Origin: Clytia hemisphaerica
Lineage: Eukaryota; Cnidaria; Hydrozoa; Leptothecata; Clytiidae
NCBI GenBank assembly: GCA_902728285.1
Contig: CACVBU010000738.1
Location: forward strand, 2,209,491-2,273,490
Length of the DNA stretch: 64,000 bases
Direction: 5' to 3'
How positions within the stretch are numbered: the first letter of the stretch is position 1; every line of letters begins with the position of its first letter. The translations under genes were made by a program, and so were the position numbers. This document shows positions 104-61,791 of this stretch, piece after piece. The notes under the pieces were generated by a model. That model was not told where the DNA came from. It did no database searches and worked only from the letters and a program-made list of their open reading frames with translations.

Positions 104-951
104 TATCTAACAACTCTAAAAATGTAATTCAACATCAAGTGCGTTAGATTTTTCATGTTTTTCTTTTTTTTTTCGAAATCGTAAATATTTTCTTATTGTT
201 GTCCACAGCGCACACGCGTCCCGTAAATCCTTAATAATCTAAATTACAGTATGGTGTTTAGGTCGAAATTTTCAAATGTTGTGGAGAGTAAGAACAAAAG
301 CGAGTTGTGTATTCAACGGTACATTCCAATCAACCAACCCAGCCTTGATAAGTTTGATGGAAATAAATGACATATCGACATTTCGTATCCAAACCGAAAA
401 TAGATAAAAAAGACCCCCAAAAAACCCGTAAGAAAACCACATTCTTTACTTAAGAAAAGAAAAATAATTATGAAATATTTAAGGATAAAATTCTTTGAAA
501 ATCAGGAAAAATTCGATAAAATAGAAGATTGAGTGGAGTAAACATGCTTGCGGATTCTGTTTGTCTGTCATCAAACCTATTTCATTGAAAAAATACACAA
601 AAAAATGATGAATTACGTGCGTATTTTGCTAGCTCGTGCACTGACTGAATCACATAACTTTATACGCATACTGCTCTTTAATACATTAGAGTCTTTTTAA
701 TTCGAACCTCTATAACTCGAATGTCTCCTTAACTCGAGCAGGTTGTTTCGTTCCTTCAGTTGAAAACGCCTTATAAACGTTACTCCACAACTCGAAATTT
801 CCTTGAATCGAACAAATACATCTAAATGCTAAAGGTCTGTTCACACGGTTGACCCTAAACTTCTAGACGAAACACAGGAATCTATTGGAGATAAATTAGG
901 AATGTCTATACGCCCTTTTTGGGGTGCCAAGTCTGTCTTAAAAGTACTATT
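104..951. other. Unassigned AT-rich stretch with a decayed pogo-like fragment
   Basis: No gene is supported. At about 695-815 there are repeated TTCGAA/CTCGAA motifs (AATTCGAACCTCTATAACTC) like the ends of the pogo/Tigger-like elements elsewhere in the window, so this is probably a decayed copy. The rest shows no recognisable structure. Confidence 0.5.
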
Positions 952-1036
952 CCCAGCTGACACACAACGTTGTTTCAACGTCCATCTAACGTTATATGGA
1001 CGTTGGGAACATTAGATGGACGTTGAAACAACGTTG
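952..1036. mobile_element. CAGCTG-ended palindromic mini-element, right end truncated
   Basis: Near-palindrome built from AACGTTG/CAACGT words. Arms CACACAACGTTGTTTCAACG and the complement meet around TTATATGGACGTTGGGAACA. The complete copy is 61698-61791; others are at 4284-4366 and 8047-8131. Confidence 0.7.
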
Positions 1037-1654
1037 CTACGGCACTGTATTTATTATTCTAAGAAGAATGAAGGAAGATGGAAAAATGAATAATTTTTCT
1101 ACTAGTTCAAAATCATGACATGGTGGATTCAACCTCAAGTCTGATATACAAAAGGGTTAACCAACTAGAGACTTATTTCTTAGCGAAACAATCCCGAGAT
1201 CATTAAATTGAAACAAAATGTTAAGATAGACAAATCATACCGTAATTTTGTATAAGATTCCCATTCCCGCACTAAGATTCCTTTGCCACTTTTCTAGCGG
1301 AAAAAAACAAAGGACTTTGGGTAGTTGGAAAATGAGCTTTGGAAAGTTAGGCAATTTTGTAATCAAAAACACAAGATTTTCCGTACCTTTAGAAACAAAC
1401 CGTTTTCAATCTCATGTTGGTTATCCCGGGAAAAATATCGGAAAGATTCCAGAAAAGTGACAAGAATCCTAGTGTGGAAATGGGAATCTTATACAAAACG
1501 ACGGTAATCGAGGTCATCCCTCTCCTCGCCCGCTGAACAGCCATTGTCCTACCAGAAATATTAACTTTGTTTCAAAAATGGATCTTAAGGGCGAGAAAGG
1601 AAAGAATTAGTGACGAGAGACGGTTGAAATCCCAGACTAGTGTGTTTGTGCGTA
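1037..1654. other. No recognisable gene or repeat
   Basis: Frames of 60-70 codons at 1248-1507 overlap one another in two frames, lack splice signals and show no protein family. I see no repeat shared with the rest of the window. Confidence 0.5.
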
Positions 1655-1830
1655 CAGTTGAAGCTCTCTAACTCGATGTTCTACTATTCGATAGGCTCCC
1701 TTATTCGATTAAATTTAAAGTCCCCGTCAACAAGAAACTCTCATAAACGACGCTCCCTTATTCGATAAGCTCGCCCTTATTCGATGAAAATCCAATTTTC
1801 CTTGAAGATCAAATTAGAGAGCGTCAACTG
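1655..1830. mobile_element. pogo/Tigger-like MITE
   Basis: Inverted ends CAGTTGAAGCTCTCTAACTC and GAGAGCGTCAACTG, flanked on both sides by TA. The interior is full of TTCGAT/TTCGAA motifs. CAG-starting ends plus a TA duplication are typical of pogo/Tigger elements. Related copies: about 25025-25188, 47073-47246 and 51748-51916. Confidence 0.65.
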
Positions 1831-2044
1831 TATTTCAAGAACCAGTTCGACGTGCGAACAAGAATAAAAGTGCGTTCTTTTTAAATATCTTTGGGGAATA
1901 TTTTTAATTTTTTGTTTCACTTTCTAAATTATTGAGAAAGGGATTACAAAGAAGGATTGGACAGGGATAATTTTCCTATTATCACTTTCAAAACTTAAAT
2001 AATCCCTAAGGCGCACTTTTCATTAAGGAGTTGAAAAACGTACT

Positions 2045-3061
2045 AAAGTCTGTCCAGATATAATTGGCAGTGGAAACAAGAATGCCTCTAACTTTTGATA
2101 GTCAAATATAATTATGAAAATTTTTTTTGCTTGTTTTAGAGAATCAAAAGCGCTATATTTGAATGTATTTTTGGTTGAAAAATTCGCGATTTTTAGCGGT
2201 TTAATTTGCGATTGTAAAAATTGAGCTTTTTTTCTACTTATGCTATAACGTTCATTTTTACACCAGTGGTAGTTCAACCTTAGGTTAAGAAGTTTGTTAA
2301 ATTTCAAGGCAAACAAAAGAGTCCTTCGGAAGATATGGGACCCGAAATACCCCTTGGTAGCACTTTTCTGTGAAATATCAAATCTCCAACTTATTACTAA
2401 AAACCGGGGTTATGTTATCTTTTTTGAACAGTGCAATTAAAAGTTGGAAAATGTTAAGTGTTGGTGCATTGGTATTATTGGTATCATTGATTATTTCGAA
2501 ACGAAGTGAAATCATATGCAATATAATTTGTTTTTATTGAAAGGATAAGCATGAACTTATATTGCCTTTGTTATTTTTAAGTCATTAAAGAACTTTGCTA
2601 ATTCCCAAAACACTAAACACAGTTTGGCTATGAGGTCATTAAAGAGATTGTAAAATGTGTTATGATCGAAAAACTGTTTCATCAATCATATCACTACCCC
2701 CGTTTTTAGTAATAAGTTGGAGATTTGATATTTCACAGAAAAGTGCTACCAAGGGGTATTTCGGGTCCTATATCTTCCGAAGGACTCTTTTGTTTGCCTT
2801 GAAATTTAACAAACTTCTTAACCTAAGGTTGAACTACCACTGGTGTAAAAATGAACGTTATAGCATAAGTAGAAAAAAAGCTCAATTTTTACAATCGCAA
2901 ATTAAACCGCTAAAAATCGCGAATTTTTCAAACAAAAATACATTTAAATATAGCGCTTTTGATTCTCTAAAACAAGCAAAAAAAAAATTCATAATCATAT
3001 TTGACTATCAAAAGTTACAGGCATTCTTGTTTCCACTGCCAATTATATCTGGACAGACTTT
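2045..3061. mobile_element. Large foldback element with 370-bp arms
   Basis: Positions 2045-2415 and 2690-3061 are inverted copies differing at only a few positions, separated by a unique loop of about 275 bp. Outer ends read AAAGTCTGTCCAGATATAAT and its complement. Both arms give the same open frame on opposite strands (97 and 149 codons); this mirrors the repeat and is not a gene pair. The high arm identity suggests a young insertion or gene conversion between arms. A transcript across it would form a long hairpin. No clear target duplication was found. Confidence 0.8.
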
Positions 3062-3570
3062 AAAAAAAGAAATTTACTATTGCAGTTGCATAATTCAGCT
3101 TTAACAATAGATATTTATAGATTTTTCTCTAATTCGATATGTATTCTTTAATCCGATATTTATTTTGTCAATTCAGATTGATCAAACTAAGTCGGTCAGA
3201 TAGAGGTCCAGGTGAATTCTATAGACTTTTTCATAAATTACCTCACGAACATCATTTGCCTCGTATTCAAACAATTACCATGGTGATTATGTCCCTTGAG
3301 ACATTAAATAATTTTTTAATGAAAAGAAAGTAGTTTTAATGAAATCCGCTGGGAGTTAATCACCATGGCAATAATTTCAAAGCGAGGCAAGTGATGTTTG
3401 TGACGTAATTTATGAAAACGTTTATTGAGAGGAAGTTTGAACTCGCAAAAAAATTTAAACTTAAACTTAAACTCAAAAAGTTGTCAAAATTTTCTTTTTT
3501 AGGTTCATTCTAGGTCTCAGACTCGAACATATCAGTCAATTTCCAAACCTAAGATCCCTCGGAATGTAAT
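3062..3570. other. No recognisable gene
   Basis: Contains a short inverted pair: ATTACCATGGTGATTATGTC near 3276 and a TTAATCACCATGGCAATAAT-like word near 3357, with flanking AGGCAA/TTGCCTC and TACGTCAC-like words. This is probably a decayed foldback from about 3236 to 3415. A TTAAACTTAAAC microsatellite sits near 3457. Confidence 0.45.
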
Positions 3571-3763
3571 AGTGAGTTTATGTATGTGTGTTTTTCAGCG
3601 ACGGAGACGGTAAGGTTCTAATTTGACTAGATCCTGACCAGCCGAGGACGACGGTAAATCAACACTTTTACCGTCCTCGATTTTGCGGGGCGGAACTGCG
3701 GGTTTTTCCAAATCGCTTCAGTCACTCTACCGTCCTCAAAAGTGCAAATACATAAACTCGGTA
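3571..3763. mobile_element. MITE with GAGTTTATGTA ends, copy A
   Basis: Ends AGTGAGTTTATGTA and TACATAAACTCGGTA are inverted. The interior carries GACGACGGTAAA / TTTACCGTCCTCGA inverted words. A second copy lies directly downstream, another at 15595-15822, and an end fragment at about 21190-21258. Confidence 0.7.
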
Positions 3764-3767
3764 ATAT

Positions 3768-3946
3768 GTGAGTTTATGGAAGTTGTGTAGTCCGGAGCGG
3801 AGACGTTTAGTTTTTTATTTGGCTAGATCCTAACTGACTAAGAACGGTGGTAAATCAGTGTACTTTGACCGTCCTCGATTTTGCGGGTCAAAACAACGGG
3901 TTGTTCCGAATCGTTTCTGTCATTCCGCCGTGATACATAAGCTTGC
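3768..3946. mobile_element. MITE with GAGTTTATGTA ends, copy B
   Basis: Same organisation as copy A (GTGAGTTTATGG start, TACATAAGCTTGC end, GACCGTCCTCGATTTTGCGG inside) but diverged. The two lie head to tail only a few bases apart, by tandem duplication or insertion into a sibling. Confidence 0.65.
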
Positions 3947-3956
3947 GATTGAGATC

Positions 3957-4246
3957 ATGTTCGCATGTAACGGATCCGTTTCGCTCCGAATCGAAATGAA
4001 GCTATTCTATTGGTTAGAAGTGACGTAAAACTTGAATGCAGCCAATTCATGATATGCACCACTTGAGAGTCTTCTGAGAACTTTTAAAATTTTCCATCCA
4101 AAAAACGTCACTTTTTCTATTGCTTAAGTGACGTATTGGGTGGAAAAATTTTGAAAGTTCTCAGAAGACTCTCCAGTGTTGCATATCATGAATAGAATGG
4201 CTTCATTTTGTTTCGGAACTAAGCGGAACCGTGGCGTGTGAACGTG
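3957..4246. mobile_element. Foldback element interrupted by a second foldback
   Basis: Outer arms (about 3957-4045 and 4193-4246) are inverted copies around CGTTTCGCTCCGAA / TTCGGAACTAAGCGGAAC with GAAGCTATTCTATTGG on the inner side. They enclose the CATGATATGCACC foldback. An uninterrupted relative is at about 15215-15332, supporting the nested reading. Confidence 0.55.
4046..4192. mobile_element. CATGATATGCACC foldback, copy 1
   Basis: Nearly complete palindrome. It starts TTCATGATATGCACCACTTG, ends with the complement, and has a centre containing AAAAACGTCACTTTTTCTAT. Five copies in the window (also 15046, 27134, 36977, 45477). All carry TGACGT words, several with neighbouring CCAAT words. 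Confidence 0.8.
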
Positions 4247-4283
4247 GTCTGAAGCACGTGCATAAAAACAGCGAAATAATATA

Positions 4284-4366
4284 CCCAGCTGGCACACAAC
4301 GTTGTTTTAACGTTCATTAAACGTTTTATAGACGTTGTGAACATTAGATGAACGTTGAAACAACGT
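4284..4366. mobile_element. CAGCTG-ended palindromic mini-element
   Basis: Starts CCCAGCTGGCACACAACG and continues with the same inverted CAACGT words as the copy at 61698. The right end is truncated. Confidence 0.7.
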
Positions 4367-5324
4367 AAGTACACACTAACAAACACCATCAATGCAAATA
4401 CACCAAGTACTTGCCAGACTCTCACAATCTTTCAAACCAAAAATAAAAACCCAGAACATTTGTTTTTGAGTGTTCCTCGGCTTCCTTAAAACCAACCAAA
4501 ATAAAACAAGACTCCGATTCTTTGATAAGCCCGTCTAAGCACGTCACCACATAAAAATAACATTCCTAAACCTTGAAACAAATATCCCAAGAAATTTATT
4601 AGGGGATTTAAAAATAAAATGGTTCCCCCTTTTTTTTTTAGCCCGTCAAAATTAGTTATTAGAAAACTTATTAAACATTTGATTAATTGAACAAAAAACA
4701 TTAGAGGAAAAGGGATGATATATAATATCGCAAATGATTATTTTTACCCCTTTTTTCATTCATTTGCCTACTTATTTCTTTACTTATTCTTTCTTTTGAA
4801 CGAATTTTTCAGATATATTAGTAATAATCATCGTATGTTTATAACATATAATTTAGAAGATTTTTCTTTTGGCTTTTTTCTGCCAAGAACTCAAAGCTAA
4901 TCATTTTATTTTAAGAATTCAGTATATTTCCGGGCGGGTTGGATAAAACCAAAAGATGGGTGTGTGTCACTAGTAGTGTTTTTAGTACAATTTGATATAA
5001 ATTTATTGTCAAAAGTTGGTCCCAATTAGGTGGGTGATTTTCTTATTAAAAACATTTGAAATTGGAGTAAAGTTATAAGTTCATGTAAAATTTCTCCCTC
5101 TATCACAATATTTACTAATTATATTAATTTAGGCCTTATTACTTTTATTTTTCATTTTGATTACTTTTGATCAATATGTTGCAATGATATAACAAAAACC
5201 ATTTTATGAAAAACCAAAAGAAATTAATATGAGCCTGGACGTTTAGCTTTCCTATAAGAACTAAGACTAGAACAATAGAACAATCAAATGAAAATGCGGT
5301 CTTCCAAAATATTTATGAATAAAA
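4367..5324. other. No recognisable gene or repeat
   Basis: AT-rich sequence with short hydrophobic frames at 4486-4900 on both strands. These arise from poly-T/poly-A composition. No splice-bounded exon or shared repeat was seen. Confidence 0.5.
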
Positions 5325-5530
5325 GTAAGTTTGCAACCGGAGTCGGCGGCGACCCAAGAGCTCCCTTTCGATTGTTTTCTACCCGAGGGTAAGAAAGGGT
5401 GCCTGGATTGCTCCACTTACTTACCCTCCATCCTTCTCGTAAGTGCTAAGCATCAAGCAGAGAGGCATCAAGTACAATTTAGTAATAAGTACAACATTTT
5501 TGGTATGATTCGACCGAGGGTTGAACCGCC
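5325..5530 (-). mobile_element. tRNA-derived SINE, 5' truncated
   Basis: Reading the minus strand, a pol III B-box-like GGTTCAACCCT lies near the start. It is followed by the body shared with 40764-41039 and 48273-48484 (ACTTGATGCCTCTCTGCTTG, then AAGTGGAGCAATCCAGGC). The tail is of the CTTA type. The A-box part is missing. Confidence 0.75.
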
Positions 5531-5764
5531 ATTACTGAATATCCCTAAATATTCTAAGTCAACATGTATGTATTCTTTGCCATTAAATGTTTTTTATGCA
5601 AACTTCAACCAAGAAAATTTAATCATTTCGAGGGGGACAAGCACCATGCGTCCAACTCACTAAAATGCTTTGTTAAACAAACACATAATTAATCTTTAGT
5701 AAGTTTAACCATGTTTTTTCAGATTTTCAGGAATACTTAGCCTGATAACAGCTGGTCATAATTT

Positions 5765-6035
5765 TTTTACGGACACGGTAAACTTCTAAAGGCCATTGAA
5801 AATTAACCATCTGAGGAAAATAGTCCTCCCGCGGAAAATTTTACAACAAGAATCTTGTTGTGCGCTGGGAAGTCAAACTAAATTTTCCCGATACGGCGCC
5901 CTATTCTAACTTTGTCTCGCTACTTTGTTGTCGTTCCCAGTCCACCCGTGGCGATGCCTTGTTTTTACACATTCCTTTAGAGCTTCAGCGTGGTGGGCAG
6001 AAAACAATCACAATCTGATCTCAGGTTAGGAATAC
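5765..6035. mobile_element. Interspersed repeat shared with 23760-24370
   Basis: Shares GAAAATTAACCATCTGAGG, ACGGCGCCCTATT and CAATCTGATCTCAGGTTA in the same order with the copy at 23.8 kb. The copies diverge strongly in between. Confidence 0.6.
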
Positions 6036-6284
6036 TTGACTTAGTATAATATTGCATAACAATACCCCCGCAGAGCACGAAACGTGAAAAACTCGAATCA
6101 CAGTAAAGAATCAATTAATCCTTAAAAGAAATTGAAATAACGAAAAAGAAATGTGAAATTTGTGAAGTGAAAAATGAAGATTGATGAGGCTCAAAAAAAC
6201 AGACTCTCCCTGATATTGAAATTCCAAGAAAACCTAAGAAGAAGAATCTAGTTGGTTTAAAGATATTAAGGATTTTAGTCTGAT

Positions 6285-6519
6285 ACATGTTTTTTATAAG
6301 AACAAGCTATATAAGAACACAAGACTTCGACGGTCAAAATTTCAAGAACATTTTAAGGCTTTGTGAACACAAAAACACCCGATTTCTTAAGAAAATGGGT
6401 AAAAGGGTCACAAAATTGTGAAAATAAGAACATGTTAAGAACATTTCTAGGCTTGAAACCGTAAAAGCATATCACAAGGCTTCAAAAATTATAGATGTTC
6501 TTATAAGAAATAAACGTGT
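6285..6519 (+). mobile_element. TATAAGAA-family MITE, long subtype
   Basis: Starts ACATGTTTTTTATAAGAACA and ends TTCTTATAAGAAATAAACGTGT. The interior repeats AAGAAC/TTAAGAACAT words and ACACCCGATTTCTTAAG, shared with 61323-61562 and 62803-63045. Confidence 0.7.
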
Positions 6520-6531
6520 AAGAGTGTCTAC

Positions 6532-6887
6532 ACGAAAAGTTAGGGAAAAAACGTTTTTTTATGAGAACACCCACAATTTTTGAAGCCTTGGGATGTTCTT
6601 AACTTTTTGAGTTTCAAGCCTAGAAATGTTCTTAAGATGTTCTTATTCTCACCATTTTGTGATCATTTTCGGATATTTTTAATTTTTTGAGTTATAAGCC
6701 TATGAAAATATTCTTGACTTTTTCTTATCTTTACCATATTGTGAATTTTTTTTTTGCGATTTCTTAAGAATTTGGATGTTTTAGAGTCTACAAAGCCTTA
6801 AAATGTTCTTAATTCTTTCTCAATATTATAGCCATTGGATACATTCTCATAGTTTGTTCTTATAAAAAACGTCCATAAGTCGTGTGT
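6532..6887 (-). mobile_element. Inverted second copy of the same MITE
   Basis: About 30 bp after the previous copy and in opposite orientation: TTTTTGAAGCCTTGGGATGT ... TTCTTATAAAAAACGTCC. Together the two form an imperfect 600-bp inverted repeat. Confidence 0.65.
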
Positions 6888-7128
6888 TTAGTTGTACGTG
6901 ACTTTGAAATTTAAGCCTAGTTAACCCTCTAAAGCTATTATGTTTAGATAATCAATCAAATGTCTTACCATTAAGCTCCTAAAAGTTTTGACTTTCAAAT
7001 TGAAAAATGTTCCGACATAATTCTATATATCTGGGAGAACGATACGATCAAAGTCGTTTTAGAGATCATCTTTAGAGAACAATTTTGAATATGTAAAATG
7101 TTGCTGGTTTTCCTTGAATTACGTTTCT

Positions 7129-7516
7129 TTTTTATAAGAATAGTGTTTTTCCATTTCATCATGGCTATTCTTAACTTTTTTAGGAAAAATTATCCTGAAA
7201 TAATCTTACAGTATTCTTAAGTTAGAATGCGAATCCAGACTAAATCTAGCACGCAATTTTTATACCTCAAGTAAGACATTTTCGTGAAACTTCTAAGCAT
7301 TACTGGGAGAATTGTTGGCAAATTAGAGGTAAAATGCGCTAAAAATGGCATTTTTAGGTTCTGTTGTCAAATAACATGATGGTGATATTGTTAGCATTAT
7401 TTTTAATTTTTTTGGCCAATTGAATCATGAATAGTCTTATAAAGTATATTCTTATAAAAGAAGAACCATGTATAACGAATCTTAGTAAATGCAGATTGCC
7501 ACTACACGCTTTTTTA
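7129..7516 (-). mobile_element. TATAAGAA-family MITE
   Basis: Bounded by TTTTTTATAAGAATAGTGTT and CACGCTTTTTTAATACGAAT, with CATCATGGCTATTCTTAAC and AGTATTCTTAAGTTAGAATG inside, matching the 29293-29625 copy. The outer boundaries are uncertain. Confidence 0.55.
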
Positions 7517-7570
7517 ATACGAATGTGCTGTAAGATTAAGAATAATGAAATTGGCCAAAAATTCCAAAGT

Positions 7571-7800
7571 CCCGGGGGGGGGGGGGGGGGGGGGTACATG
7601 GGTAAAAAGGGGTACGGGAATGTGCCGCTGGTCAGGGTAAGGGGGTCAGGCAAACACAAAAATAGAAAAATCAGTCCCTCGTAGGGTACCTTTTTTGGAG
7701 ATTTTGGAGGAAAAAAAGTAGAAGATTTTGAGAAAATTTGCAAGTTTTAAGTCTCAAAAGTTTAAAGTTTCAAAAAAAACGAGTCCCCGACGTAGAGAAA
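7571..7800. mobile_element. CCCGGGG-ended element with a G21 run
   Basis: Begins CCC followed by 21 consecutive G (7574-7594), then TACATGGGTAAAAA. The continuation (GCCGCTGGTCAGGGTA, GTAGGGTACCTTTTTT) matches the complement of 35451-35753 and 63294-63593. The distal end is degenerate. A 129-codon frame on the minus strand simply crosses this repeat. Confidence 0.65.
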
Positions 7801-8046
7801 AATGCGAACATATTCTGATCACGATTGTACCATCATTTGACCATAATTAACCAGAGAAAAAAATTTAAAAGGGAAATAACATGAAGGTTTATTATAGCAG
7901 ACTATTCCCAAATTTCTTTACACAGTCTGACCTCGGTAGCACTGCGGTAGTTCATCGTGTGATGAAGAAAAAAAGCAACAGGTTAACACGGAATGGGATA
8001 CTGTGCATGATTGGGAAATGAAAACTGACCCACGGAAACTAATCAC

Positions 8047-8131
8047 CCACAACGTTGTTTCAACGTTTATCTAACGTTCACAACGTCCATATAACGTTAG
8101 ATGAACGTCGAAACAGCTTTGTGTGCCAACT
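8047..8131. mobile_element. CAGCTG-ended palindromic mini-element, diverged
   Basis: CACAACGTTGTTTCAACG ... TAACGTTAGATGAACGTCGA ... GTGTGCCAAC. Same inverted word order as the 61698 copy. Confidence 0.65.
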
Positions 8132-8197
8132 AATCAATTTTTTCAAGGCTATCATCTCTTTACATTACATTACAGTACACATAACCCACCAGAATTA

Positions 8198-8444
8198 CAC
8201 CCCTGTCTCACAGCCCACTGGAACTTATTTCTTCAGTGGGGATAAAAATTCCTATTGAAATCCCGATGGGGATAGAAATTCTATTATTTTTCCAAGGTTA
8301 AAAAATCCAGTCGGGATGGTTTTGGAGTGCGATTTTTAAACATTGAATTTCGAATGGGGATGAAGACATTTCCCCACCGGGGACGAAATTTTTGCCAAAT
8401 TTTCAGTGGGGCTGGGGTTCCAGTGGGTCTGTGACACAGGGGTG
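8198..8444. mobile_element. CACCCCTGT-ended MITE
   Basis: Inverted ends CACCCCTGTCTCACAG and CTGTGACACAGGGGTG, flanked by TA on both sides. The interior alternates CAGTGGGGATA and GGGACGAAATTT words. Second copy at 50162-50444 in the opposite orientation; a fragment may lie at about 27556-27640. Confidence 0.75.
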
Positions 8445-8789
8445 TAAAATGAAAATTCTTTATTTTGTATAATACATTTTTTGTAAGAACCTTATAGTAA
8501 AGTTTTGATGAGGCTCTTCTTCAAATCATTCTCATCATTCTGTTCTTAATTTTAGGACAAAAAAAATAGGCAATGTACTTAGGTTATATCCTACATTTTG
8601 TAATCTGTTCCTTATTTCAGTCATTCCAGGCATTGTACTCGACGTTGTCTCTTTGAGGTTTTTGTTTTTATTGTGTTCTTACAAAGTTATTTTAATAAAA
8701 AATGAGAGATAGGAGACCCTCTTAAATGCTAGAACTTCACTTAACATGAGCTTCTAACACTCTCAACATCAGCTCGACAATATTAGTGG

Positions 8790-9480
8790 GGGTTTCTTCG
8801 ACGGGGCAGCAATATATAGCCAATTTTGGGTATCTTAATGTTTTTCAGAATTTAAAGCTCAGGCGAAAAAATGCAGTTTCAGTACTTCCGCTTTGTTTCA
8901 TTGGATTTTTCGATTTGGGAGGGGTTAAGTGGAACATTTTTGAGCTTTTAAACCTTGTGATCTAAAGGTCCTAAGTTCTACGTCTCATGTTAAAACTCTA
9001 CTTTCCAACCGTACTTCAAAACACGTGCAGTTATAAAATTTTAAGGGAATTCCCCTTTTGCGCCAAATATTTTGGCGTCTATTGTAGATCAATTTTTTTT
9101 GGATTTTCATGGATATGACAAATCAGTCTCGCTTGAGGGTTTTAAAGGTTTTATTTTTACATAAGTGTTTCCGTCTCATACCAGACATGTATTTCATATC
9201 AGGACAGCGTCTACCTATTGTTATATTATGCCGGTATAAGCAAAAAATGTTTTACTTTTTCTCTTTCTGACTAATCTTGCTCCACATCCGTGTCTATCCA
9301 ATGTGAAAAGGCTTGTGAATTGAAATTGTTGAGTAACAAGACGATATCACTCTCATTTAAAAACAAAACCTTTAACTTGAATATGTCAGAAGTCTCCCTA
9401 AGTCTGATAAAAGATGAACTACTCAGTAGAAAAACCAACATCTTTAAGTAATAAGAAATATTTTTGGTTTGTCAGTACCT
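8790..9480. repeat. Interspersed repeat, about 700 bp
   Basis: Two parts recur elsewhere. The first (about 8830-9085: TCATGTTAAAACTCTACTTT, AATTCCCCTTTTGCGCC) is related to 43940-44260 and 46700-47000. The second (about 9130-9475: CATACCAGACATGTATTTCA, TAATCTTGCTCCACATCCGT) is related to 50540-50800. No inverted ends or coding frame found. Confidence 0.6.
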
Positions 9481-27133: not shown

Positions 27134-27276
27134 TATTCATGATATGCACCATTGGAATGTCTTCTGTTCCACCCAATAGCTGATTGGTTGAAAGTGACGT
27201 ATTGCTTTTACGTCACTTTCAACCAATCAGCTATTGGGTGGAACAGAAGACATTGCAGTGGTGCATATCATGAATA
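27134..27276. mobile_element. CATGATATGCACC foldback, copy 3
   Basis: Almost perfect palindrome of 143 bp: TATTCATGATATGCACCATT, then CACCCAATAGCTGATTGG, GAAAGTGACGTATTG and the complement. The best-preserved copy in arm symmetry; contains paired CCAAT and TGACGT words. Confidence 0.85.
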
Positions 27277-27792
27277 GACCCTGGACAAAGTTACAACGGT
27301 GATCTTTGATCGGATTTTTTTTCAAAGAAGCCATTGCAGTGTTAGAAATTAACGTTAAACGGCGCTACATCATCAAGTATTCAAGATAGAGTAAGATCTC
27401 CTATTGTGTAATGCTGTACTTGCAACTGGGCTGCTGTTTAAATGGTATCTCAGAAGACGGGGGTGGATACGTTTTGACAAATCATCAAATTTACTCTATC
27501 TTTCACATTATTTCACATAAACGTTAAAATATAATGTCACGAAACTGATGGACGTGGGGTGGGGTCCATCGCCCGGCTGGAAAATTTGGCCAAAATTTCG
27601 TCCCCCGTTGGACGAAATAGCCAACAATTTAAACCCCTATTGGGAAATTGACTTTGAATTGAGATGAAAGTAAAGAACTTTTACTAACCCATAGGGTAAT
27701 AACCCTAATGTTCAGAAAAATTTGTCTTGTGTACCACCACTCCCTTTTCAGTACCGGGTACTACCTGTTTTTGACTGAAAAAGGACCACAAC
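27277..27792. other. No gene; possible fragment of the CACCCCTGT MITE
   Basis: GGAAAATTTGGCCAAAATTTCGTC around 27570-27605 resembles the interior of 8198-8444 and 50162-50444. The rest is unassigned. Confidence 0.4.
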
Positions 27793-27841
27793 TATGGTTG
27801 TTCATTTGTAGCAAAAGTCAATCTTTTTCATTTAGAAGTTT

Positions 27842-28110
27842 TTTTTCATATTTAGTGGAAACTTTTTCATATTTAGTGGAAACTTTTTCATATGTAGTGG
27901 AAACTTTTTCATATTTAGTGGAAACTTTTTTATATTTAGTGGAAACTTTTTTATATTTAGTGGAAACTTTTTTGTATTTAGTGAAATCTTTTTTTATTCA
28001 ATGAACTTTTTTTGATTCAGTGAAATCTTTTTTTATTTAGTGAATTTATTTTTTTTATTCAGTGAAATACTTTTTTTTAATTTAATAAATTTTTTAATGA
28101 GTTATTTATT
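27842..28110 (+). repeat. 21-bp minisatellite, left arm
   Basis: Units of the form ATTTAGTGGAAACTTTTTCAT repeat in tandem. They decay to the right into TTTATTTAGTGAATTT-like units. Confidence 0.85.
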
Positions 28111-28512
28111 TACTTACTTTAGTGAATTTTGCAGTTTTTGAATTTGGGGTCGGCTCATTCTGGTCTGCTGATTAAACCTTCTCATATCCCGTATGAGCAG
28201 CCCTGTATTTTCCGTGGTCGTTTTGACTAACTGTTTGTCGACAGCCCCTGCCCCTCTCTCTGGGTATCTATATAAAATGTAAAATGGAATTGCCTACCTA
28301 GTCATATAGAAAATAAAGAAAACATACACCACACTACTTAGTTTTTTGCTACCTAGTGAATACATGCATGTCCAGACCTAACCTGCTAGCCTCTGTTGGT
28401 TCGATTCCATGCTTGTTTGTTTTAACCCGCGTTTTCGACCTGTATTTCTTGGCAGGAGGATAAAATACTGACCATACTTACCAATCTGCGCGTTCTGTCA
28501 CATGATCACTGA

Positions 28513-28770
28513 ATATGAATTTTTTTTCACTGAACATATATTTTCTCCACTAAATAAAAATATTCTGCGGAAAACAGAACGTGATTTTTTTTCACTAAAT
28601 ACAAAATTTTTTCACTGAATGTAAAAATGTTTCCACTGAATAAAATTATTTTTCATTGAATGTAAAAACATTCCTACTAAACACAAAAATATTTCACTGA
28701 ATGTAAAAATATTTCACTGAATGTAAAAATATTTCACTGAATGTAAAAATATTTCACTGAATGAAAAAGA
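28513..28770 (-). repeat. 20-bp minisatellite, right arm
   Basis: Last five units ATTTCACTGAATGTAAAAAT are nearly identical; the leftward ones are degenerate. Complementary in sense to the left-arm array. Confidence 0.85.
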
Positions 28771-28805
28771 TTGACTTTTGCTACAAATGAACAACCATAC
28801 ACAAC

Positions 28806-29292
28806 CCCCCAATTGATGAAATTATTTCACACAAAAATGTTAAAAGATCTAATAGAATGTCACTAACCAGAAAAAATGAAATCAATCAGTGACCGAAGTC
28901 CAAAAAAGAAACAACCGCAGTATTATCCTCTAAACATGAAAAAAGTCCTCGCCATGAAAAAAAAGGTAAAAAAGTTAAAAATGATTTTATACTCATTAGA
29001 AACAAAGAGAATTTAGAGTGCATAAAAGTAAAAAGTTGAGAACGAAAAATTTAATTGAGCTGAAATATAAAGTGAAAAATCCCTCTCTTTTTTTCACGGC
29101 ATAAAGATTTAAAACATATTCTTGATATTCATGACGTAACCTTCTATACGGAAACACTTATGAAAAACACCGGGCGTTTGCCACCATTTTTGAATTTAAA
29201 CAATAATACTGGTGGCAAACGCCCGGTGTTTTACGTTTATTTCCGTATAAAAGATTACGTCATGAATATCAAGAAATAAATTATATAAACTA
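28806..29292. other. No gene; one foldback pair
   Basis: 29110-29272 contains an inverted pair: TTGATATTCATGACGTAACC...CACCGGGCGTTTGCCACC and GGTGGCAAACGCCCGGTGTT...TACGTCATGAATATCAAGAA. This is a foldback of about 165 bp with near-perfect arms, seen once in the window. Confidence 0.6.
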
Positions 29293-33168: not shown

Positions 33169-34305
33169 CAAGACGACTTGAAGTCGAAAATTTCGCCTAA
33201 TTTTTAAACTGCATGGGAAAAAACAAGAAGTAGAGATGAAAGCTAATCTGAAGTCTTCTTTACATACATCGAGCCTTGATGAAACAATTTTATATGAACA
33301 ACGAGCAGGCTCAAAATCGCTAAAAAGATAAGATCAATTTACGAACAATGGTTGTTTAATTCTTAAGAACTAATAATCTGAAGGGCATATCACCATCTAT
33401 AAAGAGTTATTAATTTGATTCTTATAGAAAAAAAAAACCTTATCAGGGAAAACTTCGTCCGGGAAAAGTGACGAAATTTTGGCCAAGTGACGAATATTTT
33501 TCCCCGACGAAAATTTACCCCGGCCTTAATGCGTTTACCAACTACCAGCAAGTGACGAATATTTTTCCCCGACGAAGTTTTCCCCGATAATGTAAATATG
33601 TTCATATTGGGCACCATCCCTTGATTACTTTGTAAGAACTAATAACCGAAGGCTATATCACCTTCTACCGAGAGTTATTGATTTGATTCTTATAAAGTAT
33701 ATGCTTATAAGAAAAATAAATATGCTCATATTGTGCGCCATCCCTTGTTTACTTTGTAAGAACTAATTACCGAAGGGTATATCACCGTCTATCAAGAGTT
33801 GTTGATTTGATTCTTATAAAGTATATGCTTATAAGAAAAATAAATATGCTCATATTGTGTGCCATCCCTTGTTTACTTTGTAAGAACTAATTACCGAAAG
33901 GTATATCACCGTTTATCAAGAGTTATTGATTTGATTCTTATAAAGTGTATGCTTATAAGAAAAATAAATATGCTCATATTGTGCGCCATCCCTTGTTTAC
34001 TTTGTAAGAACTAATTACCGAAAGGTAAATTGCCTTTAAGCAAGAGTTTTTGATTTGATTCTTATAAAGTATATGCTTATTAGAAAATAAAGAAAAAATC
34101 CAAACTGTGAATCTAAAGACACAAAGATATATATGACGTAATCCAAAGAAAACCCGCGAAAATCGTCCGTGGTTATACGAGCGTGTAATTTGTAAATTAA
34201 ATTTAGTGAGTTTGTCCACCGTATCGAGTACTTTCGTTTTCTATTTTTTTTATTACACCGCCGCCGCCGCGAAAGGCTATCGTAATACTTTCGCTAGGCG
34301 AAATT
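33169..34305. mobile_element. 1.1-kb insertion carrying TATAAGAA-type sequence
   Basis: Sequence absent from the intact copy of the host element. It contains AATTTCGCCTA near its left end and TAGGCGAAATT near its right end, a GGGGAAAA/GACGAA segment (33440-33600) like 41415-41822, a 124-bp tandem array, and a GCCGCCGCCGC tract at 34260. No clean target duplication seen. Confidence 0.6.
33600..34090 (+). repeat. 124-bp tandem repeat, about four units
   Basis: The word GAGTT(A/G)TTGATTTGATTC recurs at 33672, 33796, 33920 and 34044, an exact 124-bp spacing. Each unit also holds CTTATAAAGTATATGCTTAT and GCGCCATCCCTTGTTTAC. Unit identity is high, suggesting recent amplification. Confidence 0.9.
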
Positions 34306-37125: not shown

Positions 37126-37269
37126 CTCTGCATACGTTGGCTTCTTGCAGTGTTTTATTTTTGCCTCATGGGGTGGTTGACCTCTTTAGACAGTATTTAC
37201 TGTCATTCTCCCTATGATGTATCCAGTGGCGCGGAGCATTAGAAACATTTAGCTATCGAAAGAAATACC

Positions 37270-40200
37270 ATGAATAACTCTTTAAACAGCACCAGGGTTA
37301 AAGCCCCTGCTTTCTCAGTTTCAAACTTAAACCTTGTTTCCCGCGAAACCAATGAACCGTCTTCTCCAAACTCACCAGAGAGAGTTGACGGTGATAGGAT
37401 TGAGTCTGTAACAAAACCTAAAACACAAAGACTACTAGTTTGCAAACATCCAGCCATTTTTAGCACTTTCAACGTGCGCTCTCTATCTCTTGTTAGTAGA
37501 AAACAAGAGCTTCTTTCGTGTTTTTCCAAATTCCAAATTGATGTGCTCAGTATTCAAGAGCATAGATTTCTACACAAAGACATTGAGTTCCTCCACTCAA
37601 ATCTTGGTAAAAACAAGCTTGTAACCGCCTCAGCATGGAAAAATTCCCAGGGAACAACAATCGGGGGTATTGGTATGCTACTCTCTTCTAGAGCAGCAGA
37701 AAATCTTTTATCTCTCCGTAAAATTTCAAATCGAATTATTGTTGCCGAATTTAATAGCAACCCTAAAACAACCTTTGTAGCTTGTTACAGTCCAACTAAT
37801 GTCTCTGAACAGGTTGATGTCGATAGTTTCTATTCCATTCTTTCTCAAACTATCCTTTCTATTCCTGCACATAACTTTCTTATATTAGCTGGCGACTTTA
37901 ATGCCCAGTTAGGGAATGATAATGTAAAATTTTCATACCATAAATCGACAAATAGAAATGGTAATAAACTCTTTGATTTTATGTTACAACATCAGCTTGT
38001 TGCTACAAATACACTTTTTATGAAAAATACTAATAAGCTCTGGACTTTCCAACATCCCTCTGGAACTAAATCCCAAATAGACTATGTCCTTGTCCGAAAT
38101 AAATGGAAAAACAGTGTCAGAAATGCTCAATCATATTTTTCTTTTTCTTCTGTTGGCTCAGACCACAGAGTCGTTTCTGCACACATTTGTCTAAGTTTGA
38201 GATCTTCTAAAAAGTGTAAACCCAACCCTCTGAAATCTATTGATTGGCAACAAGTTTATACAAGTTCTAATCTTCGCTCTATTTATGCGGTTGAAGTGAA
38301 AAATAGATTTGACCTCCTCTCTCGTCCCGATCACAATATTGAAGAGAAATACCAAACTTTGGTCGACGCAAATGAACATGTCTGTCTCTCTCTTTTGCCC
38401 AAAAAAGTTAAAACCAAAAGAACACATCTGTCTGAAAATGATCTTGTCATCGCAGCACGCAATGAATACGATAAAGTCAAAGCAAGGCACCTATCTCGCG
38501 CAACCAGAAGAACCTCAAAACGCCTTGCTGACGCCCAAAAATATTTAGATGAAGCTTATTTAACAGCTGAAGCATCTTTTATTCAAGGTAAAATTGACTC
38601 TATTTCACATCTTCATTTTTCCAATCAACACTCAGCTGCTTGGAAGACAATCAATGAACTGTCAGGGCGCAAGGATCATCCATCGATCCAGCTGAAAGGA
38701 GGATCTCCAGAGAAAAGAAAAGAGAATTGGCTTGCTCATTTTAAGTCACTGCTTGGAAATCCCCCACTTCTCGGACCTGACCAACTTCCTCTGAACCAAG
38801 TTTTTGATCTCTTACACATTTCAACAGAGTCTTTTACTAAAGATGAACTTAAAATAGCTTTAAAATCTTTTTCTATCAATAAATCTTCCGGTCTAGACAA
38901 TATACCCACAGTTTTATGGAAAGACCCTATTTTTCTTGACCTCCTTCTAGAGTTTTGTAACCATACATTTAACGATTTTGTGCCACCTTCTGCATGGTTA
39001 ACAGGGGGTATCATTCCAGTTCCCAAAAAAGGTGATCTGACCTTAGCCTCAAACTACAGAGGTATCACCTTGATGCCAATTGCCGCAAAAATTTATAACA
39101 AACTTTTATTTAACCGTATTGTTCCTATTCTTGACCCCCTCCTTAGGAGAAACCAAAACGGTTTCCGGAAGGGCAGGAGCACACTCTCTCAAATTTTATC
39201 TATCAGACGAATTCTTGAAGAAATGAGGAAACTCAATAAAGATGCTTTTATATGTTTTGTTGATTTCAAAAAGGCCTTCGACTCGATCAGTCGAGAAAAA
39301 ATGTTTCAAATTCTAGGTCTCTATGGTATCCCTGAGAAAATTATAAATGCTATTCAAGCATTGTATACTTCTTCCAAAGCAAAGGTTGTATCACCTGATG
39401 GGGATACAGATATTTTTAATATTCAAGCAGGAGTTCTTCAAGGAGACACTCTTGCTCCTTTTCTTTTTATAGTTGTTTTGGATTATGTTTTAAGAATTTC
39501 TGTTGATACTTTTAACAAAAAGGGAATTCAAATTAAAACGCCCCAGGGCACACGCGATCCTGGCTTGTTTGTGACTGATCTGGATTTTGCTGATGACCTC
39601 GCACTTGTTGCAGAAAGTATTCAAAATCTCGAAATTCTACTCCATTCTTTAGAAACTGCAGCAAGTCAGGTCGGTCTTTACTGTAACGAGAAAAAAACAG
39701 AATATCTTTGCTCCTCTGAAAACTTTCTCCCTTTATTTTCTTTGAAAGGTGTTGACATTAAAAAAGTAATCGATTTCAACTACTTAGGCTCTCTTATCAA
39801 CAGTTCTGATAGCGACTTTAAAACCAGGAAAGCACTTGCGTGGAAAGCTTGTAACAAGCTCAACAAAATCTGGCAATGTGATCTTGACAATAACCTCAAG
39901 CTGAAAATTTTCAAGTGTCTTGTGGAGCCCATTCTTCTTTATGGTTCTGAAACCTGGACCATGACAAAATCTATGGAGAAAAGTCTTGATGGGTGTTATA
40001 CCAATCTCCTGAAAAGGGTTCAAAATCTTGATTGGAGAGATCATCCCAACCTCGCCCAAATCTACCAAGGTCTTCCTAGAATCTCTTCTGTTCTTTTTTC
40101 CAGGAGGTTAACTTTCTCCGGCCATTGTTTCAGAGCAAAATCTGAAATCATTTCAGATATCTTATTGTGGTGCCCTACTGGTCCTAGACGCTCAAGGAAG

Positions 40201-40314
40201 CGAACTTTCCTCGACAATTTGAGGCGGGAAACAGGGCTCGAGTTAGAAGAACTGAAAACAGTTATGTCAGACCGTGAGCTGTGGAGAGAGAGATACTCGG
40301 TATTTCCGACCTAA
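37270..40314 (+). CDS. LINE ORF: AP endonuclease and reverse transcriptase (RTE/Proto2-like)
   Basis: A single uninterrupted 1014-residue frame for a non-LTR retrotransposon polyprotein, which nicks target DNA and copies its RNA in place. Endonuclease, about residues 62-305: FNVRS (N68), QEH (E97), AGDFNAQLG (207-215), QIDYVL (D271) and GSDHR (296-300). Reverse transcriptase, about 520-850: NYRGITLMP, GFRKGRST, FVDFKKAFD (663-671), GVLQGDTLAPFLF (721-733), FADDLALV (773-780) and YLGSLI. Then YGSETWTMTK (891-900) and a C-terminal region with no RNase H or zinc knuckle seen. GVLQGDTLAP and YGSETW fit RTE/Proto2-like clades better than CR1/L2; this clade call is from memory of motifs. All catalytic residues are present. 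It lies in sense orientation in intron 2 of the host gene. Confidence 0.92.
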   Translation: MNNSLNSTRVKAPAFSVSNLNLVSRETNEPSSPNSPERVDGDRIESVTKPKTQRLLVCKHPAIFSTFNVRSLSLVSRKQELLSCFSKFQIDVLSIQEHRFLHKDIEFLHSNLGKNKLVTASAWKNSQGTTIGGIGMLLSSRAAENLLSLRKISNRIIVAEFNSNPKTTFVACYSPTNVSEQVDVDSFYSILSQTILSIPAHNFLILAGDFNAQLGNDNVKFSYHKSTNRNGNKLFDFMLQHQLVATNTLFMKNTNKLWTFQHPSGTKSQIDYVLVRNKWKNSVRNAQSYFSFSSVGSDHRVVSAHICLSLRSSKKCKPNPLKSIDWQQVYTSSNLRSIYAVEVKNRFDLLSRPDHNIEEKYQTLVDANEHVCLSLLPKKVKTKRTHLSENDLVIAARNEYDKVKARHLSRATRRTSKRLADAQKYLDEAYLTAEASFIQGKIDSISHLHFSNQHSAAWKTINELSGRKDHPSIQLKGGSPEKRKENWLAHFKSLLGNPPLLGPDQLPLNQVFDLLHISTESFTKDELKIALKSFSINKSSGLDNIPTVLWKDPIFLDLLLEFCNHTFNDFVPPSAWLTGGIIPVPKKGDLTLASNYRGITLMPIAAKIYNKLLFNRIVPILDPLLRRNQNGFRKGRSTLSQILSIRRILEEMRKLNKDAFICFVDFKKAFDSISREKMFQILGLYGIPEKIINAIQALYTSSKAKVVSPDGDTDIFNIQAGVLQGDTLAPFLFIVVLDYVLRISVDTFNKKGIQIKTPQGTRDPGLFVTDLDFADDLALVAESIQNLEILLHSLETAASQVGLYCNEKKTEYLCSSENFLPLFSLKGVDIKKVIDFNYLGSLINSSDSDFKTRKALAWKACNKLNKIWQCDLDNNLKLKIFKCLVEPILLYGSETWTMTKSMEKSLDGCYTNLLKRVQNLDWRDHPNLAQIYQGLPRISSVLFSRRLTFSGHCFRAKSEIISDILLWCPTGPRRSRKRTFLDNLRRETGLELEELKTVMSDRELWRERYSVFPT

Positions 40315-57756: not shown

Positions 57757-59097
57757 ATGGTTACTGAATACACCTATCACAGCCTTAACGACACGAAGAG
57801 ACTGGTGATGAAAGGTAAATTCTGCTTGACGACGGCATCGTCATCGAGCTCTTTTGTGAAAAATGTAAGATACCCTTGCATTGAAGCGATAAAGGAACGT
57901 CAATATACTGGAATGAGCATCACTGAAGACCTTACGCCTGATTTGCATAAGAAAGTGCACCAATTGTCTATCGAAGCTAAAGAATTGAATGCAACAAAAT
58001 CTCCAACATCAGGAATATATCACGTCCGTGGTAATTCAAAAAACGGGTTCAGTATCAAGATGGTGCCACTAGAAAAAATCATCGATGACGAAATCACCAA
58101 CAGAGAAGAATGTCTCCTTCTCCGAAAACCTAACAGAGACAAACATCATCAAAGAATAGGGGCAAAGACCGCTCCAAAACAAGTAATAAAAGATATGAAG
58201 ATTCTTTATACAAATCCAGATCAGTTAACATCGTTTAAGAAAAAAGAATTACAGTCCATGGCCCGGGAAGAAAAGCCGCATATAATTGCAATCTGCGAAG
58301 CTAAGAAAAAAGCAGGTGCCTTGAAGGAGTTACATGAATATGAATTCGATGACTACAAAATTGATAGCCAAGTTAACCTAGATACAGATCAAGGGCGTGA
58401 CATTGTCATATTTGTCCATATCTCCATTAAACACTTGGTAATCGATGTCAAGCCTCCAGTGACTTTCAATGAAGTTTGCATGATTGAAGTACAACTATCA
58501 GGAAAAGATTTGCTCGCTGTTGTATGCATTTATCGAAGCCCAACTAGATCTACGTCCTCTAACGAAAACAACAACAACCTAAACTTATTGATCAAGTCCA
58601 TTGCATTAAACAAGAAATGTTCGCACAAATGTTTGTACCGTGATTTCAACTTTCCAACAATCAATTGGGAAAACTGGACCACCCCGCATCTGGAGGATAG
58701 CAAAGAAGAGAAATTCTTAATTGCTTTGAGAGACGCATATCTCCATCAACATGTTAATGAACCAACTCAATGTAGAGGAACTGATGACCCATCCCTCATC
58801 GACTTGATCTTAACAGGCGAAGAAAACCAAATTAGGAATCTCGACTACCTAAGACCACTAGAAAAAAGTGACCATAGTTCGTTGGCTTTCAATTTCGTTT
58901 GCTACGCATACTCCAAACCTACGCAAACAAGGTTCATCTATGCTTCAGCCAATTTCAAATTAATGAAAAATGACCCGACGTTGAGGGAATGGAAAGAAGG
59001 TTTCAAAAATGCATCCGTGAAAAAATCAGTGGAAGATCTTTGGGAATCGTTCAAGAAAGTTGTCATTGATCTCGCAGAAATCGATTTGTCCCTTTGA
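57757..59097 (+). pseudogene. CR1/L2-like LINE, endonuclease part
   Basis: 446 codons with an apurinic endonuclease at about residues 147-380: LYTNPDQL (N153), ICEAK (E181), QGRDIVIFV, CIYRSPT, YRDFNFPTINW (295-305), SLIDLILT (D349) and KSDHSSL (370-376). Two family glycines are replaced by arginine: QGRD for the usual GRG, and RDFN for GDFN. The N-terminal 145 residues have no zinc finger or known domain. The frame ends at TTTGTCCCTTTGA (59097) by frameshift or deletion, and the continuation is in other frames. In an intact CR1-like element endonuclease and reverse transcriptase are one protein, so this is a broken copy. Confidence 0.85.
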
Positions 59098-60576
59098 AAG
59101 AAGTTAGGTTAACATCCTACAAAAACAGTTTTGCAGCGTCTTTACCAATGAGCCCCCAGGAACGATTCCCGACTTTCCTACACGAACGGAGATTCAAGTT
59201 GAGAACATCATCATAACAGAAGATATGATGAAAAAACAGATAAAATTCCTGGACGTGAGTAAATCCTTCGGTCCGGATGATATACACCCGAAAATGTTAG
59301 TTGAACTGATTGACCATCTAGGCCGAACCCCTGACTATCATCATGAACAAGACCTTGTCTGAGGGAACAATACCAAAAGATTGGAAGATGGCACATGTGA
59401 CTCCAATCTATAAAAACAAGGGTGCCCGAAACCTTGCGATAAATTATAGACCTGTTAGTTTGACTTCATTAGTCTGTAAGTTAATGGAATCATTTATAAG
59501 AAAGCACATTATGAAGCATCTAACTGACGAAAAGCTTCTAACCAACAAGCAATACGGTTTCATTAGTCGCAGCTCCACCGTCACACAACTCCTAAATTAT
59601 TTGGACAAGTGTTCTGACTGACAGAAAACAATTGTATAAGGTTAACCAAACTCGATCTAAGACGGATGATGTTATCAGTGGTATTCCCCAAGGAAGTGTT
59701 TTGGGAACACTTCTCTTCGTTATCTACATCAACGACCTCCCTGACAATGTGCCGTCTTCGATTCTCCTATTTGCTGACGACAAGTCACAAGTCACTTCGA
59801 TTGAGGACTCATTGGTTATCCAACAAGACATACACAAGCTTGAAAAGTGGTCAAATGATTGGCTATTAAGATTTCACCCAGATAAGTGCCACGTTCTCAC
59901 TCTCGGTAAATATTGGAATATTGTCCATGCGCACCCTTATTCACTTAGAGGTGAACAACTTGAACATGTTTTTGTTGAAAAAGATCTCGGTGTTCTGATA
60001 GACTCTGACTTATCCTTCGAAGAACATATATCAAAACAAGTGAAAAAAGCAAATTCCATTCTAGGAGTCATCAGAAGAGGTTTCGAAGACCTAAGTCTTA
60101 AAACTTTCTTCACTCTGTACACAAACTTTGTCCTGCCTCATCTCGAGTATGCCCAATCTGTATGGTCACCAAAACTACGTAAGGACCACATCAACTTAAT
60201 TGAGGGCGTTCAACGACGTGCCACTAGGATGGTCAGAAGGTTAAGTAATCTACCATACGAGCAGCGCCTACGAAAACTTGACTTGCCTTCTCTCGAATTC
60301 AGAAGACATTCCGGAGACATGGTTCAGATCTACAAACACTTGCACTTCTACGATAAGGATAAGTTTATTCGCAGGGTGCGTCCATCTCGAATTCACAATT
60401 ACGAACTGATACCAAACTTTGCAGACGATGGTGTCCAGACCAAGTCGTTTTATTATCGATGTGTGACAGCATGGGACCTTCTACCAAAAGAGACTGTTAA
60501 CGCTACTAGCATCAAAGTGTTCAAGAAAGAACTAACCAAGGCAAATCCATTGCGCTACGAATCAAGATCTTTGTAA
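59098..60576 (+). pseudogene. CR1/L2-like LINE, broken reverse transcriptase
   Basis: Pieces in order: 59115-59330 in fragments (DVSKSFGPDDIHPKML motif), 59343-59621 (EGTIPKDWKMAHVTPIYKNK, NYRPVSLTSLVCKLME, KQYGF) ending KCSD-stop, then 59632-60576 (TRSKTDDVISGIPQGSVLGT, LFADDKSQV, LEKWSNDWLL, LGVLIDSDLSFEEH, YAQSVWSP, RRATRM). Compared with the family order, the segment between LLNYLDKCSD and LTDRKQLYKVNQTRSK is missing. This is where motif A, with its catalytic aspartate in D(F/Y)xKAFD, belongs. Frameshifts occur near 59100 and 59325. The reverse transcriptase cannot be functional. Confidence 0.88.
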
Positions 60577-61697: not shown

Positions 61698-61791
61698 CAG
61701 CTGGCACACAACGTTGTTTCAACGTCCATTTAACGTTATATGGACGTTGGGAACATTAGATGGACGTTGAAACAACGTTGTGTGCCAGCTG
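61698..61791. mobile_element. CAGCTG-ended palindromic mini-element, complete
   Basis: 94 bp, starting CAGCTGGCACACAACGTTGT and ending ACAACGTTGTGTGCCAGCTG. Near-perfect palindrome with CAACGTCCAT repeated in each arm. It splits an AATTCGCG/TTTCGCGAAA-rich repeat (61580-61697 and 61792-61860). Confidence 0.85.

Follow-up and report, generated by a model that had tools for sequence, protein, structure and literature searches.

The 1007-bp element at 27793–28799 of the window (the whole 64,000-nucleotide stretch of DNA analysed) is very probably a non-autonomous foldback transposon, derived by internal deletion from a long IS3EU/GingerRoot-like element and mobilised in trans by an integrase-type DDE transposase. 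Terminal inverted repeats (TIRs), opposed tandem arrays, a unique core and a 6-bp target duplication are all present in it. Foldback ends were previously described for Galileo (P-type) and Tm1 (Mutator-type), and they appear here on an integrase-type transposon. IS3EU/GingerRoot transposons and the foldback architecture are each already known; their combination in one clade of IS3EU-like elements seems to be new. Foldback structure alone does not reveal the superfamily of a transposon.

Architecture of the Window Element

Comparison of the two ends gives a TIR that is perfect over 40 bp (5'-TATGG..CCATA-3') and matches at 42 of the first 43 positions. The left TIR occupies 27793–27832 on the forward strand and begins with TATGG, and the right one occupies 28760–28799 in reverse orientation and finishes with CCATA. 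The inverted ends reported in the first-pass annotation are thus real, at 40 bp perfect instead of the 45 bp it gave. Both boundaries are directly abutted by CACAAC, at 27787–27792 on the left and 28800–28805 on the right (forward strand), an exact 6-bp direct repeat already pointed out in that annotation. Pairs of random window positions are abutted by an exact 6-mer with a frequency of 0.0006, or 0.0035 when a shift of ±3 bp is allowed.

The opposed arrays, of 21-bp units on the left and 20-bp units on the right as first described, were recovered by Tandem Repeats Finder and a repeat finder. The left array (27831–28130, forward strand) contains a homogeneous block of six TTTAGTGGAAACTTTTT[C/T][A/G]TA units of 21 bp at 27851–27976, one of which starts with TGTAG, followed inward by decayed units mostly 19–23 bp apart. 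The right array (28500–28761, reverse strand) has a homogeneous block of four 20-bp units at 28682–28761, comprising, from the outside inward, three TTCAGTGAAATATTTTTACA units and one ending in GTG, with decayed units beyond. The unique core proposed between the arrays was confirmed at 28131–28499. No coding frame of note was found in the element, whose longest open stretch has 69 codons and runs through the repeats.

With up to three mismatches allowed, a 31-bp end sequence has no match in the window outside the two ends of the element, and none of 100 shuffles gave a match. Among TAYGG/CCRTA pairs lying 60–12,000 bp apart in the window, two pass the thresholds, and only the pair formed by this element joins a well-matched inverted repeat to a full 6-bp duplication; the second scores 20/30 for the inverted repeat and 4/6 for the duplication.

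Sibling Copies and Families in the Genome

The genome searched was a 417-Mb assembly of 951 contigs; exons for collagen and CTHRC1 at one sibling locus, together with LINE-type reverse transcriptases in the window, indicate that it is an animal's. The 24-bp end, with at most two mismatches, was found at 37 places, of which 23 are in forward and 14 in reverse orientation and 19 are exact; the two ends of the window element are among them, and a reversed-control pattern gave no genome match. With the 108-bp left end as query, 29 matches were obtained, read as 12 loci with that of the window. The first-pass annotation had held that the lack of any second copy with the same ends would argue against a mobile element; such copies are plentiful. 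The end pattern had no match in either the viral_contigs or the genome_contigs set.

A perfect 6-bp target duplication flanks 10 of the 11 two-ended copies read: CACAAC (C513), CACACC (C850), TATTTT (C340), GACGAG (C370), TGATAC (C740), GATCAT (C256), GGTATT (C373), TATTGC (C197), GAAAAA (C359) and GCCTCT (C472), copies with a single end in the fetched DNA, such as C314, C784, C842, C819, C376 and C172, being left out of this count. The duplication thus occurs with other letters at nine other copies. TATGG..CCATA termini are found at both ends in all 11, and deviations are seen in single ends only, with TGTGG in C842, TATAG at two C784 places and a changed end in C819. The eleventh two-ended copy, C94 (G000:C94:1511394-1512446), has unlike flanks (left ttttgg, right atgtgt), which may reflect mutation or ectopic recombination between copies. 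The latter would be only a hint of the genome rearrangement linked by the first-pass annotation to such elements. Sibling ends and 6-bp duplications together support the identification of the window stretch as a mobile foldback-type element, as originally suggested.

At least three families can be distinguished among the copies. Family 1, the window type, comprises C513, C850, C94, C340, C314, C370 and C784. In family 2 (C740, C172, C462, C256, C842 and C819), the units are TTTAGTGAAATATTTTTTCA-like with a best lag of 19–21, and the two arms can be much alike, with 92.5% identity in C740 over 186 aligned bases (positions 41–240) versus 69.6% in the window element. Family 3 has the variant end TATGGTTGTTTATTTG on one side (13 ends) and TATGGCAGTTTATTTG on the other (4/4 copies examined), and its units are TTCAACGAAATATTTTACTA and similar. 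A lag of 63 is strongest in 12 of these 13 ends, the best short lag being 19 (12 ends) or 20 (one end), and the opposite arms are also arrays in 4/4 copies. Two family-2 ends (L044 and L045, in G000:C172 and C462) have an identical 20-bp left flank, which may indicate a segmental duplication or allelic contigs.

Long Copies and Internal Deletion

The parentage of the window copy can be read from two long-copy types. Positions 1–443 of the element correspond to the left side of C314 (90% when unit gaps are counted), and positions 440–1007 to the right ends of C370 and C784 (about 90% identity). The left 44% is therefore C314-like and the right 56% C370-like, with a sharp junction in the core at about 28231/28232. 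The left part of the core (28131–28231, forward strand) recurs in the left side of C314, which carries the transposase gene, and its right part (28232–28499, forward strand) recurs at the right ends of C370 and C784. On the strength of these alignments, the window copy is assigned as an internal-deletion derivative of a long transposon. The junction differs in C850, where the first 711 bp are as in C314 and the last 382 bp as in C370. The cores of C340 and C94 are of the C850 kind, with additional gaps in C94. Since the junctions of the window copy and C850 differ, at least two separate internal deletions have taken place.

The three long copies (C314, C370 and C784) align collinearly, with 90–99% identity over their common stretches, except for internal repeats (70–82%) and inserts. 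C370 is 23,308 bp long, with both ends and the duplication GACGAG; it contains nested inserts and only a C-terminal piece of the transposase gene. One of these inserts is an LTR retroelement (L009/L010, G000:C370, about 881,500–887,100) with two identical 184-bp end repeats, and their identity suggests a probably recent insertion. No single copy combines all features: C314 has the transposase gene, which is broken in frame, and it stops at the contig end. The length of the parent transposon is estimated at about 15 kb or more.

The Transposase

Three pieces of a gene with an rva_4 integrase core are present in C314, beginning about 0.5 kb inside its left end, and they match the Pfam rva_4 family (PF24764) with E-values of 2.2e-19, 3.2e-16 and 2.4e-14. 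The left arm of C314 runs into an open frame (L013:681-1535) that, with two further pieces, covers much of the rva_4 core. A frame break disrupts the gene, and the part carrying the second catalytic D is read in a different frame. The start of the first open frame is retained in the cores of the short copies C850, C340 and C94, at 88, 88 and 92% identity. When the 18,950 NCBIfam models were searched with a C314 piece, only IS3 (1e-4) and IS481 (2.9e-4) were obtained at E ≤ 1. A single-sequence structure prediction of the C314 transposase piece had a mean pLDDT of 43 and was of no use.

Relatives with open frames give a clearer picture. IS481 and IS3 are the two best NCBIfam models in 5/5 of them (E 8.9e-5 to 1.4e-11), the sole other NCBIfam match at or below 0.01 among these five being a resolvase-like model in one (E 6e-4). 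In Pfam, rva_4 is matched at E ≤ 1e-58 in all five, and the general rve family more weakly, at 5e-8 to 6e-4. The D, D and E motifs were recognised in 9/9 open relatives read, three of which (L032–L034) have identical motifs and length, and 34 residues separate the second D from the E in the five measured. Ahead of the core, no HHCC zinc motif was seen by eye and the Pfam integrase zinc domain was matched in none of five relatives at E ≤ 0.01; weak Pfam helix-turn-helix matches were obtained in four of the five. These motifs and profile matches identify the transposase of this element group as integrase-type, not P-type. The expectation of a long copy carrying a P-like transposase was thus half right: long copies exist, and the gene in C314 is of the rva_4/IS481/IS3 integrase type.

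The genome has at least 137 transposase matches (137 of 423 candidates were scored), many of which have open frames at least 400 codons long. The next-best match by E-value is an open one in C653 (57%), at a distance of about 11 kb from a family-3 end. Element ends were looked for around the transposase-bearing relatives C391, C410 and C170 and were not found; C391 seems to be truncated in its left arm. The transposase gave six pattern matches in the viral_contigs set, none of which was confirmed. Three of the relatives with identical motifs, L032–L034 (G000:C410, C897 and C939), are close to one another, C897 and C939 each being 99.8% identical to C410 over 3 kb, with about 340 extra bp each at the same place. 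These loci may be young copies or duplicated contigs.

Array Variation and a Possible Role in Transposition

An array of at least three ~19–21-bp units was recognised by eye in 33 of 37 arms, namely 36 of the 37 pattern places (without C784:842506) plus C819, a count to be read with the fact that 12 loci were initially found by a query holding part of the array. Little or no array is seen in the other four (C376, C732, C784:507795 and C784:832288). The arrays are a trait of the clade, spread over three families. In family 1, the best lag is 21 in 6/6 left arms and 20 in 6/6 right arms. The inner decayed units are nearly in register between copies of this family, and whole-unit differences are located in the outer homogeneous blocks. 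The comparison of unit numbers proposed in the first-pass annotation shows them to vary: the left block has four units in C314, five in C850, six in C513 and C94 and seven in C340 (C370 was omitted, its left array being cut after three units), and the right block has three in C94, C370 and C784, four in C513 and C850 and five in C340. The partly independent homogenisation that it had proposed for the two arms holds at the family level, the left and right arms retaining distinct unit types throughout the family-1 copies read. As the unit sequences differ among the three families, the period of ~19–21 bp is kept while the letters change.

These features can be combined into a working mechanism. 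A long IS3EU/GingerRoot-like DNA transposon would have lost its interior to give the short foldback copies, which would then be moved by cut-and-paste in trans by the integrase-type DDE transposase of the family, through recognition of the conserved outer end (24–40 bp). If, by analogy with Galileo, this transposase also recognises the repeated ~20-bp units, the arrays would be multiplied subterminal binding sites. That units are gained and lost mainly in the homogeneous block beside the TIR suggests that they multiply through slippage or through unequal exchange among identical units. Retention of the ~19–21-bp period, about two helical turns, would align the bound subunits along a single face of the double helix, and such regular spacing suggests phased binding; the arrays may thus be phased transposase-binding sites. 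Self-regulation is also possible, since the left array of C314 lies upstream of the transposase gene as well. In its full form, the proposal is that an IS3EU-like clade independently evolved foldback ends in which helically phased ~19–21-bp units load many transposase subunits, selection acting on the period and the outer ~24 bp while unit letters turn over and the arms are homogenised separately. We consider this quite conceivable, if short of probable. If true, foldback transposition driven by an integrase/IS481-type transposase would be described here for the first time, and foldback ends would have arisen convergently in P, Mutator and integrase-type transposons.

The most serious competing reading keeps the element mobile and takes the arrays as neutral products of slippage, with no role in transposition and a ~20-bp period that is inherited, not selected. 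Variation of unit number between copies (four to seven on the left over five copies, three to five on the right over six), the decay of the inner units and the four arms without an array all fit with it, and A/T-rich units would be prone to slippage. Moreover, the units of the different families still have common letters, for example TTYAGTG, so that the period could be a matter of plain descent. Against it stand the arrays in 33 of 37 arms, on both sides and in families with different units, as well as Galileo, whose TIR tandem repeats contain transposase-binding sites (PMC3688188). Neutral arrays are a substantial possibility, though a doubtful one. Three related families with different units and nearly the same period offer a comparative test of repeat-arm growth, by asking which letters and which spacing are conserved.

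Intrinsic curvature of the arms was also considered and set aside. In a wedge model, the 240-bp arms rank among the most curved 2.4% (right) and 6.2% (left) of stretches of that kind in the window, and the outer homogeneous blocks rank in the top 20% (right) and 26% (left). Such curvature is only mildly unusual, so bent DNA is not supported.

Relationship to Known Transposons

The ends, the duplication length and the profile matches make it very likely that these elements are to be filed as IS3EU/GingerRoot-like. IS3EU elements have TA..TA termini and usually a 6-bp duplication (PMC10045372), and a set of rust IS3EU transposons shows TAYGG..CCRTA ends, TIRs over 30 bp and 6-bp duplications (PMC12730594). 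All of these traits recur here, together with a DDE transposase nearest to IS3/IS481, a match of helix-turn-helix type ahead of the core and no sign of an HHCC-type domain. What differs is that the TIRs are lengthened here into long arms of ~20-bp tandem units.

Membership of another integrase-like superfamily (Ginger, Polinton or IS481EU) is improbable. The DDE cores are all related, which leaves some room for it; the different ends of Polintons speak against it. According to PMC10045372, Polinton duplications are also 6 bp, which speaks for this alternative, whereas Ginger1/2 duplications are of 4 or 5 bp and IS481EU has TGT..ACA ends with duplications of ~4, 15 or 25 bp.

The first-pass annotation had likened the element to Drosophila FB/Galileo. 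A true relative of this kind, mobilised by a P-type (THAP) transposase, is very improbable, even though Galileo (PMC3573991 and PMC3688188) has the same long and internally repetitive TIRs, arms unequal in repeat number and deletion derivatives. Galileo belongs to the P superfamily and differs by its 7-bp target duplications (PMC3573991), its THAP/P-type transposase and its ~210-bp F-group internal repeats. Here, the duplication is of 6 bp, the ends are TATGG and the sibling copy with the same left arm encodes an rva_4/IS481-like integrase core. Duplication length and transposase type rule out the P-type/FB kinship, and the integrase-type transposase, with the ends and duplication length of IS3EU/GingerRoot, makes this a foldback element of other descent. 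A local inverted minisatellite is hardly conceivable and was ruled out by the siblings, for, although the arrays are clearly minisatellites, 35 further ends occur elsewhere and duplications flank nine of the ten other two-ended copies.

The IS3EU/GingerRoot-like reading was also set against other foldback systems. Tm1, a Mutator-type foldback of Meloidogyne, combines TIRs of 13–15-bp tandem units, unequal arms and both MITE-like and transposase-bearing members, but its duplications are mostly 9 bp and its transposase is of the Mutator (Phantom) type (PMC3169594); the 6-bp duplication and integrase-core gene found here do not fit a Mutator foldback. The first-pass annotation regarded the different unit lengths and partly independent homogenisation of the arms as unusual; inequality of the arms is nothing exceptional among foldbacks, the Tm1 and Galileo papers giving different repeat numbers per arm. 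Tetris of Drosophila virilis is likewise a foldback, apparently non-autonomous, with tandem repeats in its TIRs, but its units are of ~220 bp (PMC4079207). Styx of Zymoseptoria has coding sequences in common with IS3EU, and a 36-bp TIR with a 6-bp duplication was used to search for it; in the part of PMC10853768 available, no TIR repeat arrays are described and a 32-bp repeat flanks an internal insertion. In the open literature, a scope outside which Repbase Reports and most subscription papers fall, a single one of 35 papers naming IS3EU also mentions foldbacks, within the title of a cited work, and Tm1 alone was returned for foldback combined with integrase.

Additional Genes and Neighbouring Features

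A second conserved coding stretch is common to C370 and C784 (L010:5424-8374, reverse strand; L023:1144-2799, forward strand); in C370, it and the transposase piece lie on opposite strands. By motif it looks HECT-like; no HECT match was obtained in Pfam, and a PDB search with one piece returned nothing, so that the protein is given no name here. This gene has 33 genome matches, or 28 loci without C784, C370 and three second fragments. A transposase match is present within 20 kb at five of the 28, versus 0.36 expected (P 3e-5, random placement), within 10 kb at two (P 0.014) and within 30 kb at six, for 135 of the 137 transposase positions (two extra C391 pieces dropped), with distances picked after the lists were seen, the C314 case outside the element and repeat clustering liable to inflate the linkage. 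Fungal IS3EU families likewise carry extra genes, an alpha-kinase and the transposase in opposite orientations (PMC12730594).

A 9240-bp family-2 element (L018, G000:C256:1281361-1290600, locus positions 162–9401) with a perfect 6-bp duplication contains pieces coding for collagen repeats and a CTHRC1 C-terminal domain, as well as LINE-like pieces seen by eye; it is possible that a host gene was captured between foldback arms.

The core of the window element includes, at 28398–28408, an exact match to the Pol III B-box consensus (GGTTCGATTCC), which has no second occurrence in the window, against an expected count of 0.06. This motif raised the possibility of a tRNA-derived SINE in the core, for which no tRNA was found and no Rfam tRNA match was obtained even at E ≤ 10; five weak Rfam matches (E 0.8–10) were taken as chance. 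Near-palindromic MITE-like repeats are numerous in the window (27134–27276, 29119–29275, 4035–4207, 6401–6669, 61698–61791 and others), two of them flanking the element within 0.7 kb. LINE coding regions with endonuclease and reverse transcriptase are located at 37243–40314, as a single open frame of 1023 codons, and at 57757–60576, and a 124-bp tandem repeat in four copies, 93% alike, lies at 33593–34091.
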